This document shows, in pieces, positions 74 to 20,036 of a stretch of 40,112 nt of DNA. The position numbers and the translations under genes were made by a program. Below the pieces are notes generated by a model. The model saw only the letters and a program-made list of their open reading frames with translations, was not told where the DNA came from and ran no database searches. Positions within the stretch are counted from its first letter, which is position 1, and every line of letters starts with the position of its first letter. Origin of the DNA: Candidatus Altimarinota bacterium (lineage in GTDB: Bacteria; Patescibacteriota; Gracilibacteria; BD1-5; UBA6164); contig JAHDCR010000007.1 of NCBI GenBank assembly GCA_020629795.1, positions 7,172 to 47,283 of the forward strand, read 5' to 3'.

Positions 74-184
74 TTCTAATCCTTCCTTGAATTCCTACCT
101 TTGGAAAAGGCAGGAGGCAGTATTTTTTATTCTCTTGTAGCCCCTTTCCTTTGTTAAAGGAAAGGATTCAGGTTAGGATTAGAA
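74..184. mobile_element. MITE-like palindromic repeat, copy 1
   Basis: The ends form a perfect 10-bp inverted repeat, TTCTAATCCT at 74-83 and AGGATTAGAA at 175-184. Homology between the arms continues inward for about 26 bp with mismatches. Two hairpins lie inside: an imperfect one near 97-117, and a perfect 10-bp stem with a 3-nt loop at 143-165 (CCTTTCCTTT / AAAGGAAAGG). The right half matches copy 2 (799-911) closely. No coding capacity is seen. A non-autonomous miniature element or REP-like sequence is the best description. Confidence 0.6.
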
Positions 185-204
185 AAATAAATACAGAATG
201 TGTG

Positions 205-232
205 TTGAAACTCATAATTTTTCCTATATAAT
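205..232 (+). promoter_or_regulatory. Predicted sigma70-type promoter of def
   Basis: TTGAAA (205-210) and TATAAT (227-232) are separated by 16 bp and lie just after the repeat. The def start codon at 260 is 27 nt past the -10 box. This is the clearest promoter match in the first kilobase. Confidence 0.55.
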
Positions 233-259
233 TTTGTATATATATACTAAGAATGCGAA

Positions 260-736
260 ATGCTGAAGATAGAAACCTGAAAAGATAATAAAGTCCTCCG
301 AACTATTTGTGAACCGATTAAACAATCTGAGTGGAAGCAGTATGTGAAACTTGGAAAAGAAATGGTTACCTACATAAAAAATCCTGATCATGCTGGAGTT
401 TGACTCGCTGCTCCTCAAATATGAGTTACCAAAAGAATTATGGTTGTAAGTCTTCTGCGAGATTGGGAAGATGAAAATTTTTCAACTATTATGATGATTA
501 ATCCAGAAATCCTTGAGGCTTCTCAGGAAAAAATATGTGATATTGAAGAATGATGTCTCTCTCTCCCAAAAGCAAAAAAATGATTTGTAGCGCGTCATAA
601 AGAAATAAAGCTTTCCTACTATGATGAAAAACAGAAACAAAAAGTCATCAGACTCTCAGGACTTGCGTCAGTAATAGTGCAACATGAAATTGACCACCTT
701 AATGGAGAGCTTTATATTGATAAGCTTGAGAAATAA
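260..736 (+). CDS. def: Peptide deformylase
   Basis: Removes the N-formyl group from nascent proteins in the cytoplasm, using a divalent metal (usually Fe2+). With TGA read as Gly the 158-residue product carries all three family motifs: GVGLAAPQ at about 46-53, EGCLSLP at 97-103 (the Cys is a metal ligand) and HEIDH at 142-146 (two His ligands and the catalytic Glu). The Gly of EGCLSLP and a Gly next to LAAPQ are encoded by TGA, so this gene alone argues strongly for the recoding. The ATG at 260 gives a normal N-terminus and follows a good promoter. A hairpin terminator follows the TAA stop, so the gene is probably monocistronic. Confidence 0.93.
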
Positions 737-744
737 TATTGTCG

Positions 745-779
745 AAACACTTCTTTTTTACAAAAGGAGTGTTTTTTTT
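745..779 (+). terminator. Rho-independent terminator after def
   Basis: A 13-bp stem (745-757 with 762-774, one G-U pair) is followed by a T-run. It starts 9 nt after the def stop codon. Confidence 0.7.
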
Positions 780-798
780 ATACTTGAAATAAGTTTTA

Positions 799-911
799 AT
801 TCCACCTCTGAATCTCCTCCTTTGTAATCAAAGGAGGAGGGCTACAGTCTAACTTCACCTATTTGCAGCCTCTTTCCTTTTTAGTAAAAGGAAAGAATTC
901 AAGATAGGAAT
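799..911. mobile_element. MITE-like palindromic repeat, copy 2
   Basis: This 113-bp element is bounded by ATTCC (799-803) and GGAAT (907-911), which extend into imperfect inverted ends. It holds two perfect 11-bp hairpins, 814-824/829-839 (CTCCTCCTTTG) and 871-881/886-896 (TCTTTCCTTTT). The right half, ending GAATTCAAGATAGGAAT, is close to the right half of copy 1 and to the reverse complement of the half element at 19971-20012. Its right edge lies directly against the gpsA 5' end and supplies an AGGA (906-909) that may act as the ribosome binding site. Confidence 0.6.
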
Positions 912-920
912 ATGATTTTT

Positions 921-1889
921 ATGCAAAAAATACTTATCCTCTGACTCTGAGCGTTTGGTTTTGCTATCGCAAAGCATCTTGGGGAAAACAATCCTGAACA
1001 TATCATATACGCAAGTGAAATAAATCCCGACATCTACAACAGCGTTTCAGAAACGAGAATGCATCCTTATTTCTTTCCTGGTGTAAAACTTCCTGAGAAT
1101 ATTCAACTTATCTCAAACACCGATGATTTTCTTCCCGAAGTTGATCTGATTATATCTATTATCCCTTGTCAATTCGTCTCTGGAGCATTTGATAGCATGA
1201 AAACGCATCTAAAAGCAGGAGTTACTATCCTCAACCTCTCAAAATGAATCGATAATACCAGCATGCAGACAGTGAGTGAAAAACTCAGTGAAGTACTTTC
1301 GGGGACTGACTATCAGTATGCTTATCTCGCTGGATGAATGATTGCTGGGGAACTTGTAGAAAATAAAATACTTTGAGCTGATATAATCTGTGAGGACTTT
1401 GATATCGCATCACAGCTCCAGAGATTATTTATATCAGATACGCTCGATATCAATCTAAAAATTTGAAACACAAAAAATACAGAGCTCTACGCAGCGCTGA
1501 AAAATATAATAGCGCTCATACTCTGATACTACGAATGAGCATGATATGGTGCAAGTTCACGGTGATATTATTTCGCGAAACTTTTAGAAGAATTGAAGTG
1601 AGTTATTCATCTCCTGAATTGAGATGAAAATATCGATTTCACAGACTATGCCCTCTCTTGAGACCTCATCGCTACATGCTTTGGAGCAAGTAGAAACAGA
1701 CAATTATGAAATATGCTGGGAAAGTGAGCAGCTATCCACGATGCTCTATGAGAGCTCAAATCGCAAAATAAAATAGCAGAGTGATATGAGACGCTCAAAT
1801 GAGTCTACCAACTCACTGATGGAAAAGCTGGATTTGAAGAAATTAATAATTTTGGAAAAAAATACATTAGTATTGTTAGCTCTATCTAA
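921..1889 (+). CDS. gpsA: Glycerol-3-phosphate dehydrogenase [NAD(P)+]
   Basis: Reduces dihydroxyacetone phosphate to sn-glycerol 3-phosphate for phospholipid backbones. With TGA as Gly the product is 322 residues, normal for the family. It opens with a Rossmann dinucleotide loop, GLGAFG, at about residues 8-13, in which two Gly are TGA-encoded. The C-terminal half carries the substrate-domain segments SSRG, GD and TCFGASRNRQLG. I chose the ATG at 921 because MQKILILGLGAFG matches the usual family start. An in-frame ATG at 912 would add three residues but sits only 2 nt from AGGA. The TAA stop overlaps the convergent deaminase stop by a few bases. Confidence 0.92.
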
Positions 1890-4901: not shown

Positions 4902-6209
4902 ATGGAGTTTTTCACCCCTTTTTGGATATCAATATTTATCTTTGCTATAACATTTATAGGGATACTTTCAGAGCAGGTACATAGATCTCTCATTGCTTTT
5001 TGCTGAGCTGTTGCTATGGCAACCATATGATGAATGCTAGGTTGGTATAGTCATGAACAAATCCAAAACTCTGTTGATTACCCAACTCTTCTCTTACTAT
5101 GAGGTATGATGGTTCTTGTAGCTGTCATGGAAAAAACTGGTGTATTTGAGTATCTTGCAATCACTATTGCAAAAAGAACTCACGGAACTTACTGGAAGCT
5201 CCTTGTTGCTCTGTGAGTATTTACCTCTCTCTCATCTATGATATTAGATAACGTAACTACTATCATCCTCGTAGCTCCTATTACACTCATTATCACTAGA
5301 ATACTCCATTTTAACCCTATCCCCCTACTTATGAGTCAGGCTATACTCTCAAATATTGCCTGAGTAGGGACTCTCGTATGAGATCCTCCAAATATCATTA
5401 TTGGTTCTGTTGCTGGTTTTAGTTTTATGACTTTTCTCACATACTCCCTCCCCGTAGTTACCCTCGCTTGGATATCTGCGCTGCTATACATACTCTACTC
5501 ATGTCAGTGAGACAATAAAGTAAAGCCAAAATATATAGAAAAACTTATGGAGATTAAGGCACATAAGTCTATTACAAAGCCTATTGTACTTAAAAAAAGC
5601 CTCTTTGTATTGAGTTTCGTTATATTTTTATTTTTCTTTCACCACGCATTGCATTTAGCTGCTAGCACGGTAGCGCTTCTTGGTGCTGCTTGTATTCTCC
5701 TCTTAGTCGCTCCTCATGATAACCCTCAGAAATATCTTAAAAAACTAGAACTATCAGTCTTTCTATTTTTTACATCTCTCTTTATACTAGTTTGATGACT
5801 TGAGGCAGCATGAGTACTAGATTATATAGCTACACTCATAGCTGATTGAGTAGAAACTAATATAGTAGCTACTGCCATAGTGCTCCTATGGTGAGCAGCT
5901 ATTCTCACAGCAATTATAGATAATATTCCTATGACTATTGCTATGGTTCCGATTATAGGTTTTTTTGAATCTCAATGAATCCCGGGCACGAATATCCTCT
6001 GGTGGGCACTTGTGTTTTGAGTTGGTTTTGGAGCAAACATTTCTCCTATATGATCTACTGCAAACCTGGTAGTTATGGCAAAGCTAGAACTTGCATGACA
6101 GAAAATCCATAGCAAAGATTGGATGGCAATGTGAATACCTATTGCATTTCTCTGACTCTCAATTGCAAGCGCGGCACTCATGCTATTTGGAAACTATTTT
6201 ATGGGTTAA
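4902..6209 (+). CDS. NhaD/ArsB-type ion transporter
   Basis: A 435-residue very hydrophobic protein with about eleven predicted membrane segments. Motifs place it in the ion-transporter superfamily that includes NhaD Na+/H+ antiporters and ArsB: LDNVTTIILVAP, GDPPNIIIGS, DNIPMTIAMVP and GANISPIGSTANLVV. The paired Asp-Asn elements in the two halves are typical of the inverted-repeat architecture. NhaD-like cation/proton exchange is the better guess, because no arsenic genes are nearby. The sequence alone does not fix the substrate. The stop overlaps the stop of the opposing gene by 4 bp. Confidence 0.8.
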
Positions 6210-12520: not shown

Positions 12521-12880
12521 CTATTGAACAGTAGTTTCAGCGTCAACTTCCATCATTGCATCGTCTTCCATCATTGCATCGTCTTCCATCATTTCTTCGT
12601 CAGACATATCATCTTCCATCATAGCGTCATCACCAGTAGAAGCGTCATCCATCATTTCTTCATCTGTCATGTCAGCGTCATCAACACCATCCATTTCATC
12701 TTCTATAATTTCAGAGTCATCGTCACCGTCAACAAAATCAACAACTTCTTCAGTACCTTCAACTACAGTATCAACTACAGCTTCACCACCTTCAACAACA
12801 GTATCTATAGCTTCATCAGCACCACAAGAAGCAAGAGCCATTAGAGCTACTAACATCATTACACCTAGTACGTTTTTCAT
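12521..12880 (-). CDS. Acidic, Met-rich repetitive lipoprotein
   Basis: A 119-residue protein with a short signal peptide ending in a lipobox (LASC, Cys at about residue 19), so it is probably lipid-anchored outside the cytoplasmic membrane. The mature part is almost entirely Asp, Glu, Met, Val and Ala. It contains VVEG/VVDTVVEG repeats, then tandem DDAMMEDD/DEEMMEDD units (12533-12660). No Lys or Arg follows the signal region, so the protein is extremely acidic. The family is not recognised; cation binding or surface charge are possible roles. The stop is TAG. A terminator follows, and the FecR-like gene is divergent upstream. Confidence 0.75.
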   Translation of the reverse strand: MKNVLGVMMLVALMALASCGADEAIDTVVEGGEAVVDTVVEGTEEVVDFVDGDDDSEIIEDEMDGVDDADMTDEEMMDDASTGDDAMMEDDMSDEEMMEDDAMMEDDAMMEVDAETTVQ

Positions 12881-18708: not shown

Positions 18709-19968
18709 ATGTTTCAAATTGAGCAATCACTAGACCTATCAGGAAGTGTCACAATTTGAGGAAGTAAAAATGCTGCTCTCCCTCTCATATCTGCTGCTCT
18801 CCTTATTCCAGGCAAGGTTACATTTACAAACGTTCCAGATATTTTAGATGTTCATGACTTTCTTCATTTTTATAAAAGTCTTTGAGCTGAAACTAACTTT
18901 TCATGAGATATCCTCTCTATAGACACAACTGATATTTCACTCGATAACATAGATACATCTGCCATAGCAAGAACCCGAGCTGGTATATATTTTATTGCCG
19001 GACTCCTCTCTCGATTTGAAACTGCTGATGTTCCCTTTCCTCACGGAGATAAAATCTGAAAACGTCCTATAGATGAGCATATAGATGGATATAAAAATAT
19101 GGGCTACAGTTTTGAGGAAACAAGTGAAATGCTCAAATTTTCAGGATCATGATCATCAGATGATGTTACAATTACAGCGTATTTTGCCGTAACAGCTACT
19201 GCAAACCTCGTCATGGGTGCTGCAACGAGAAATGCTACTACGACAATACAGCTTGCAGCTTTTGAGCCTCATATCTTCAATCTCATAGATTTCTTGCGTC
19301 TCGCTTGAGTACAAATTGATGTACGATATGACCATACTATAATCATCCATGGAACTCGCAACCTAAAAACTAATCTGCAGCAAGAAGTCATTTCTGACTA
19401 TCTCCAATCTGGAACATTCGCAATTATTGCTGCTCTTGCGAGTAAAGAGTATATCGATATTCATAGAGCAAGGATTTCAGACCTATGAGCCTTTCTCTAT
19501 AAGCTGCATGATGCTGGAGTAAAAACAGAAAATCTCTGAAATGATACACTGAGAGTCTATAGATGTCATAACCTTAAAGCTGTAAACATCCAGACAAATA
19601 TATTCCCAGGATTTCCAACAGATTTAATGCCCCTGTTTACCGTACTCATGACGCAATGCGCGTGAACCAGTAGAGTTCATGAAATACTCTATGAGGGAAG
19701 ATTAAACTGGCTTGTAGAGTACGAAAATCTTTGAGTAGCTCCAAGGATCATTAATCTCCACGAAGCAAAAATTGAGTGACCAACATCACTTCAATGAGCA
19801 ACGGTGAAAAGCTGGGATCTCAGAGCATGAGCTGCTTTAGTTATAGCAGGACTTCTCGCAGAGTGAACTACAAAAGTAGAAAATGTATACTGGATTAAGA
19901 GAGGATACGATGATTTTTTATGAAAGCTACAAAGCCTCTGAGCCAAAATAGAGGAAATACAAGATTAA
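18709..19968 (+). CDS. murA: UDP-N-acetylglucosamine 1-carboxyvinyltransferase
   Basis: First committed step of peptidoglycan synthesis: transfers enolpyruvate from PEP to UDP-GlcNAc. The 419-residue sequence has the EPT fold landmarks: GGSKNAALPLISAALL at about 17-32 (Lys20 equivalent to E. coli Lys22), RTRAGIYFIAGLL near 89, the loop HGDKIGKRPIDEH at 112-124, and FPTDLMP near 303. At the loop position of the catalytic Cys (E. coli Cys115) this protein has Asp (about residue 114). Cys-to-Asp variants are known in mycobacterial and chlamydial MurA, remain active, and confer fosfomycin insensitivity. Many Gly codons are TGA. It probably starts its own transcript. Confidence 0.93.
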
Positions 19969-19970
19969 TC

Positions 19971-20012
19971 ACCCTATCTTGAATTCTTTCCCTAATATTA
20001 GGGAAAGAGATT
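19971..20012 (-). repeat. Half copy of the palindromic repeat family
   Basis: A perfect 24-bp palindrome (19985-20008, TCTTTCCCTAAT and its complement) is flanked on one side by CCTATCTTGAATTC. That flank is the reverse complement of the right end of the element at 799-911. The copy begins 2 nt after the murA stop. There is no long T-run, so it would be a poor terminator. Confidence 0.5.
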
Positions 20013-20036
20013 ATAAATAATTACTAAAATAAACAC

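Follow-up and report, generated by a model that had tools for sequence, protein, structure and literature searches.

A dispersed family of REP-like palindromic repeats associated with DUF559 genes in a genome read by genetic code 25

CGTC REPs constitute one of two large super-families of prokaryotic palindromic repeats; the accessible part of the survey that describes them states that they lack a transposase of their own and does not settle how they are moved (PMC3733652). In the same part of the survey, GTAG REPs and REPINs, which are accompanied by RAYT, appear as short palindromes with a GTAG or GCAG tag at the foot, arranged in head-to-head doublets, located mostly between genes and in some cases inside them, and having a gene-bearing form in which the gene lies between inverted units (PMC3733652). 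The palindromes analyzed here resemble GTAG REPs in all these respects. However, they are accompanied by no RAYT gene: it is a DUF559 gene that lies between the units, which are approximately 46 bp long and end in a conserved 3′ tail (ATTCARGwTAGGATT). They were not filed as RAYT REPs, because the partner that defines this class was tested for and is absent.

The window, i.e. the whole analyzed stretch of 40,112 nucleotides, is part of a 1.1-Mb genome (G000; 22 contigs) and is read by genetic code 25 (TGA = Gly). The first-pass annotation had placed two palindromic elements with inverted ends and two internal hairpins each at positions 74–184 and 799–911, on either side of def, and a half element in the opposite orientation behind murA. 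The sequence and the predicted folds agree with this description throughout. Copy 1 (74–184) and copy 2 (799–911) are REPIN-like, head-to-head doublets of one palindromic unit of about 46 bp, while the half element (19970–20015) is one such unit. Like MITEs, both doublets have terminal inverted repeats, which are 9 bp long in copy 1 (TTCTAATCC/GGATTAGAA) and 5 bp long in copy 2 (ATTCC/GGAAT). From left to right, a doublet consists of an AATCC-type tail, a hairpin and GGCTACA, followed by TGTAGCC, a second hairpin and the 3′ tail, so that the GTAG or GCAG heads face inward.

The five units were matched by covariance model R1, in whose training set all of them had been included. These are (i) the left unit of copy 1 (78–122, minus strand; G000:C6:7249-7293, E 4.2e-14), (ii) its right unit, with a GTAG head at the foot of the hairpin (136–180, plus strand; G000:C6:7307-7351, E 1.2e-15), (iii) the left unit of copy 2 (799–846, minus strand; G000:C6:7970-8017, E 4.7e-12), (iv) its right unit, with a GCAG head (864–911, plus strand; G000:C6:8035-8082, E 4.7e-15) and (v) the single unit (19970–20015, minus strand; G000:C6:27141-27186, E 2.0e-11). 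The last lies directly 3′ of a gene of the EPSP-synthase/MurA family (18709–19968, plus strand; PF00275, E 1e-58) and has 19 identical bases in common with copy 2, in the opposite orientation.

Folding of single-stranded DNA gave z-scores of -6.2 for positions 70–188 and -6.6 for positions 795–915, with none of 200 shuffled sequences as stable, and a z-score of -2.9 for the half copy. In an alignment of 14 units, 99.3% of the stem cells are paired, and seven of ten stem pairs are changed on both sides, compared with 3.6 in shuffled alignments. Since these pairs change on both sides and remain paired, the palindrome was retained while its sequence changed. A GTAG or GCAG head is present at the foot of 10 of the 14 units; the CGTC tag is absent from the consensus of the window unit, and no Rfam family was detected in the window at the gathering threshold. 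The window also contains, at 12544–12679, five imperfect repeats (CATCTTCCATCATT...) spaced by 18–33 bp, which are likely to be a coding repeat.

The gene between the two doublets is def (260–736, plus strand), encoding a peptide deformylase (PF01327, E 2.2e-41, translated with code 25). Copy 1 is located directly 5′ of a promoter-like site of this gene (TTGAAA-16-TATAAT; 205–232, plus strand), and copy 2 adjoins the start of a glycerol-3-phosphate dehydrogenase-like gene (912–1889, plus strand; PF01210, E 4e-26), whose true start codon, going by the starts of homologues in congeners, is suggested to be the ATG at 921. The position of the window copies near gene starts or ends and their strong hairpins are what would be expected of immobile terminators or mRNA-stabilizing hairpins that arose in place. 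Nevertheless, def has its own terminator-like hairpin (744–775, plus strand), separate from copy 2, and a terminator scan found no such site in either doublet; a terminator role was therefore rejected as the main explanation. With homologous copies dispersed over the genome, at sites that are empty in relatives, an origin in place is hardly credible, but the units may have a secondary role in RNA stability.

Comparison with congeners revealed such empty sites for all three window loci. In genomes G013 and G014, def directly meets the dehydrogenase gene without copy 2, and a scan with R1 detected no copy 1 upstream of def; the G013 sequence aligns through this position by eye. At the single-unit site, the unit is lacking in all six readable congeners, in which only a short interval precedes the same downstream gene; the sequence of G013, the seventh congener, breaks off there. 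The window copies are therefore insertions, and the repeats are probably mobile. A different doublet stands in the place of copy 2 in G015, and in G012 a doublet is located just 5′ of the same dehydrogenase gene, so that more than one insertion has occurred at this site. The target-site duplications that the first-pass annotation proposed to look for were not seen by eye at the window copies, nor were any of 8 bp; at the empty sites, divergence is too high for the element ends to be fixed. No sharp ends were found for the window family, and copies in G041 are likewise without target duplication by eye.

As an empty-site test for a single unit, the FemAB-like gene on contig C22 of G000 was set aside, since its loop is of variable length in congeners and exact unit borders are not readable there. 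This loop contains a unit in G000 and, by eye, palindrome-like remnants in G017 and G015 (L348-L355), which hints that one loop was invaded repeatedly.

The extent of the family was examined by motif and covariance searches. Within the window alone, the 14-mer given in the first-pass annotation showed, with up to three mismatches, no excess (nine occurrences, 7.3 expected by chance); in the whole genome, five occurrences with at most one mismatch were found, and none of the reversed control. The covariance model detected 27 units in G000 at E < 1e-4, among them the five window units on which it had been trained, and the repeats are thus not confined to the copies first noticed. Seven head-to-head doublets have both halves at E < 1e-4; the rest are singles or doublets whose second half is degenerate. 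When 20 units were compared with the reading frames, two proved to lie inside long ones as in-frame peptides, the two proteins being, by eye, FemAB-like and ABC-F-like; most of the others lie outside any reading frame of at least 60 aa. Among 48 genomes of the family, units were found in 32 at E ≤ 0.01, with up to 102 in one genome. The window repeats are a dispersed family of REP-type palindromes, occurring as REPIN-like doublets and as singlets. The earlier alternative of "MITEs or REP-type palindromes" holds as regards the dispersed REP-type family and the inverted ends.

Two further observations concern individual copies. In G041, single units adjoin three genes that by eye resemble those of type IV pilins, as if they were part of the leader region (L317, L318, L319). 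Near a contig end of G000 (C4:50565-50635; L024) there is a palindrome of mixed type, composed of AAAGGAGG, a second hairpin (ATGTCAC..GTGACAT) and the tail GGATTAGA.

The first-pass annotation had suspected a RAYT or another transposase elsewhere in the genome. This was not corroborated: Pfam analysis identified no Y1_Tnp match in G000 (five of 14 control genomes do have matches), and the gene found to be associated with the repeats encodes a DUF559 endonuclease, not a known transposase. Y1 matches occur in 17 of the 48 family genomes, but no window-type unit was present at any of the 20 Y1 loci fetched from them, none of 18 usable Y1 genes had inverted flanks at z ≥ 6, and the numbers of units and Y1 genes are uncorrelated (Spearman 0.06 over 48 related genomes, whose points are not independent). 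A RAYT/Y1 transposase was on these grounds rejected as the partner; the Y1 transposase expected as the partner of a non-autonomous IS200/IS605 element is likewise missing. The units could still be classical RAYT REPs that have lost their RAYT gene or have it in the ~5% of the genome not covered by the assembly, and the GTAG or GCAG heads, the head-to-head doublets and the intergenic preference are like those of GTAG REPs in the available portion of the survey (PMC3733652), but given the results for the Y1 loci we regard this as very improbable.

The association with DUF559 emerged from the spacing of the units. Among the model matches, inverted units separated by ~400–490 bp, instead of the usual 10–25 bp, were conspicuous. 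One such pair, outside the window, is located at G000:C1:5168-5644 and has the arrangement inverted unit – DUF559 gene – unit. The interval between its units (C1:5214-5598) contains the larger part of the coding sequence of a 129-aa protein matching PF04480 (DUF559; E 9.2e-26; 90.3 bits compared with a cut-off of 20.6), the sole DUF559 match in the genome. In relatives, four of five long gaps examined contain DUF559; the fifth is a pair inside another gene.

DUF559 was found at 97 places in 33 of the 48 family genomes, and 95 of these were fetched. For each gene, the 270 bp on the upstream side were aligned with the reverse-complemented 270 bp on the downstream side, and z was calculated from 100 dinucleotide shuffles (50 for control intervals), with a threshold of z ≥ 6. 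Inverted flanks were detected at 59 of 88 usable DUF559 genes, versus none of the 18 Y1 genes and none of 110 control intervals taken within these loci; the remaining 29 DUF559 genes did not reach the threshold. The proportion was 29/34 for usable genes of the "long" type and 30/54 for the "other" type, a split defined by a regular expression and a few hand-added rows, from which the DUF559 tree moves a few "other" rows into the long clade. Many of the flanks are palindromes other than the window unit (e.g. CTCCCTTT..AAAGGGAGTACCCGCAGGGGGAGGGATTA).

The number of units in a genome follows the number of long-type DUF559 genes (Spearman 0.78 over 48 genomes, the relatedness of which makes p-values optimistic). 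All 16 genomes with at least ten units have DUF559, in 15 of them of the long type, and none of the 16 genomes without units has a long-type gene; G041 has 70 units, yet no long-type DUF559. These results demonstrate that the repeat family is specifically associated with DUF559 genes.

When mapped on the DUF559 tree, palindrome types A and B are clustered (8 changes each, compared with 12.3 and 16.6 after shuffling), with types assigned by simple regular expressions and 35 of 85 rows untyped. This clustering was set aside as evidence of co-evolution, because near-identical copies in G039 inflate it. Some DUF559 elements are bordered on the outside by tandem arrays composed of the palindrome tail and adjoining DNA (G000:C1 around 5050-5800, L151; also L190, L196, L197, L198 and L201). 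As a signature of mechanism they were discarded, since they are no commoner at DUF559 loci (27/95) than in control windows (11/40).

Profile searches with the DUF559 protein matched an endonuclease-like protein (3hrl, E 7.5e-20) and a mobile intron protein (3r3p, E 0.0039). The predicted model of a relative (pLDDT 82.8) most resembles NGO0050 (3hrl, Z 13.6), the homing endonuclease I-Bth0305I (3r3p, Z 10.3) and Vsr (1cw0, Z 8.9), and on this basis the protein is predicted to have a Vsr-like/homing-type PD-(D/E)XK nuclease fold. Other PD-(D/E)XK proteins (TnsA, resolvases, restriction enzymes) matched below Z 8, which in the model comparison indicates a common fold only. Protist ribosomal proteins also appear among the structure matches (Z 8.4–9.1); therefore, Z alone does not show function. 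The invariant acidic and histidine residues of the putative nuclease are, in A4, E25, D64, E75, D77, H81 and D90. The genes are under purifying selection, as indicated by pN/pS values of 0.25–0.37 in six pairs of relatives.

We consider it fairly probable that the elements in the window derive, as non-autonomous REP-like forms, from an element encoding DUF559 and are moved through its nuclease. We infer the following steps: the DUF559 protein would recognize palindromic (hairpin) ends and nick or cut at these ends or at the target, host repair would copy the element into the break, and gene-less doublets and singlets would be moved in trans.

Movement of the gene-bearing form can be followed in host proteins. 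Several DUF559 cores lie inside long open host proteins, in which the palindromes are translated as linkers. The hosts include, by Pfam, RecG (three), TsaD, MnmA and LeuS, as well as an N-terminal fusion to a methyladenine glycosylase, and, named by eye, RecQ, PriA, NadM and MiaA. Among 30 RecG genes fetched irrespective of inserts, the loop that links Walker A to the following strand is empty in 20, contains palindrome-DUF559-palindrome in nine and palindromes alone in one (G040); three further RecG inserts are known from the DUF559 loci. In G018 and G022, the RecG insert contains the window's own unit (CTATCTTGAATTCTTTCC...GAAAGAGG). DNA comparison of the RecG genes gave no exact insert borders.

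The phylogeny of 85 DUF559 cores, with little resolution at many of its deeper branchings, places 18 of 19 host-inserted copies in a single clade (SH-aLRT 89), including a subclade of seven with RecG, TsaD, LeuS and PriA hosts (PriA by eye). As one clade combines different hosts, the inserts have moved between genes. The label "host" requires two changes on this tree, compared with 17.4 after shuffling. In seven host proteins, Pfam (E ≤ 1e-5) identified host domains and DUF559 but no Hint/intein family, and the in-frame inserts appear to stay in the protein.

The closest alternative to the preferred model is that DUF559 is a homing-type parasite, which cuts palindromes moved by something else and is repaired into them. 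Its relation in fold to I-Bth0305I is consistent with such a role; furthermore, the REPIN-like doublets resemble the gene-bearing element with its gap emptied, and the G040 RecG loop contains palindromes without DUF559. A parasite of this kind would, however, be expected to be missing often from repeat-rich genomes, contrary to its presence in every genome with at least ten units, almost always as the long type, in a comparison that covered Y1 as the one other mobility gene, and we therefore judge homing into foreign palindromes unlikely.

A conventional mode of transposition is suggested by one genome, G039, which harbors seven complete, near-identical elements of 567–596 bp, each with a DUF559 gene and inner palindromes (loci L192, L193, L194, L199, L200 and L203). 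They have 23-bp inverted ends (GGCATAATCTAAATTTTGGTGGA) and 8-bp target duplications, which are perfect in five of the seven, while one matches in 7 of 8 positions and one in 4 of 8. Among the elements examined, target duplications are confined to these DUF559 copies, one of which sits inside a window-family unit. This points to a conventional DDE-type transposase as the simplest mover in G039, where DUF559 could be cargo.

Extended to the whole set, this reading would make DUF559 a cargo or Vsr-like repair gene, with the palindromes mobilized by conventional transposases or by replication errors. In the accessible parts of two reports, VsrA, a DUF559 protein of Caulobacter, is interpreted as a nuclease of mismatch repair with the capacity to produce double-strand breaks (PMC12907096), and a Legionella segment carries a transposase plus DUF559 (PMC12308824), both in line with such a role. 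The association nonetheless recurs across palindromes and phyla that differ widely, plasmid records annotate the gene between the arms as DUF559, and window-type elements show no 23-bp ends of this kind. A cargo or repair gene thus seems a rather unlikely general explanation, slightly more so than homing, and we retain the model of repeats derived from a DUF559-encoding element and moved by its nuclease.

The recurrence in other taxa was recorded as follows. DUF559 was present in 31 of 145 sampled genomes of the phylum, and in other Patescibacteria nine of 23 DUF559 loci reached z ≥ 6. None of three further loci, which came from a scan of named genomes (Cloacimonadota, Peregrinibacteria and Peribacteria), reached this value, a fourth being too short. 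Ten of 44 DUF559-bearing plasmid records were selected for taxonomic breadth (Azospirillum, three Deinococcus, two Sphingomonas, Sinorhizobium, Picosynechococcus, Synechocystis and Pseudanabaena). In nine of these ten, from distant phyla, inverted palindromic flanks were found at z ≥ 7 (Synechocystis, z 3.4), and the annotated gene between the palindrome arms is DUF559.

A locus filed as Bacteroidetes (L246; JABDAU010000084.1) contains a Gracilibacteria-like DUF559 with six standard-code stops in the matched stretch; TGA is perhaps read there as Gly, and the contig perhaps misbinned.

There is, in our estimate, an even chance that palindrome-DUF559 units represent a general, nuclease-only mobile class, distributed from Patescibacteria to Proteobacteria, Deinococcus and Cyanobacteria, which acts by cutting and copying at hairpin ends, with one clade invading proteins in frame without splicing and with many RAYT-less repeats being its non-autonomous derivatives. 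A full-text literature search, judged by titles and abstract openings and covering subscription papers and preprints thinly, yielded no report linking DUF559 with palindromes. If the nuclease itself drives movement, this would be a new class of element, and a family annotated as a domain of unknown function would form the core of a widespread mobile element. The association points to an unrecognized route for small DNA elements into bacterial genomes and provides a candidate enzyme for palindromes without RAYT, for a relative of which a solved structure exists (3hrl). On the same condition, RecG, tRNA-modification enzymes and a tRNA synthetase, with their in-frame nuclease inserts, would be a natural experiment in splicing-free protein invasion.

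Besides GTAG REPs, four kinds of described systems are comparable. MITEs and IS1595-type elements are similar in that short non-coding copies share the inverted ends of a gene-bearing form. In G039 there are true 23-bp inverted ends with 8-bp duplications, whereas the window family is without visible target duplication and has a partner other than a DDE transposase. Inteins are likewise in-frame inserts with a nuclease in conserved proteins, as in RecG beside the Walker A motif, but no splicing domain was detected here by Pfam. I-Bth0305I, a named mobile intron protein, and Vsr are alike in predicted fold; the DUF559 genes differ in being accompanied by palindromes, with no intron or splicing domain seen. 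CGTC REPs and the Rickettsia palindromic elements (RPE-4, RPE-6), which the window units resemble in behavior, are, according to the accessible part of the survey, palindromes found inside many protein genes, including DNA repair genes, and both are described there without a dedicated transposase (PMC3733652); their tag differs from that of the window units, and here some of the in-frame inserts carry a nuclease gene. The units of the window are REP-like repeats with a different partner gene.
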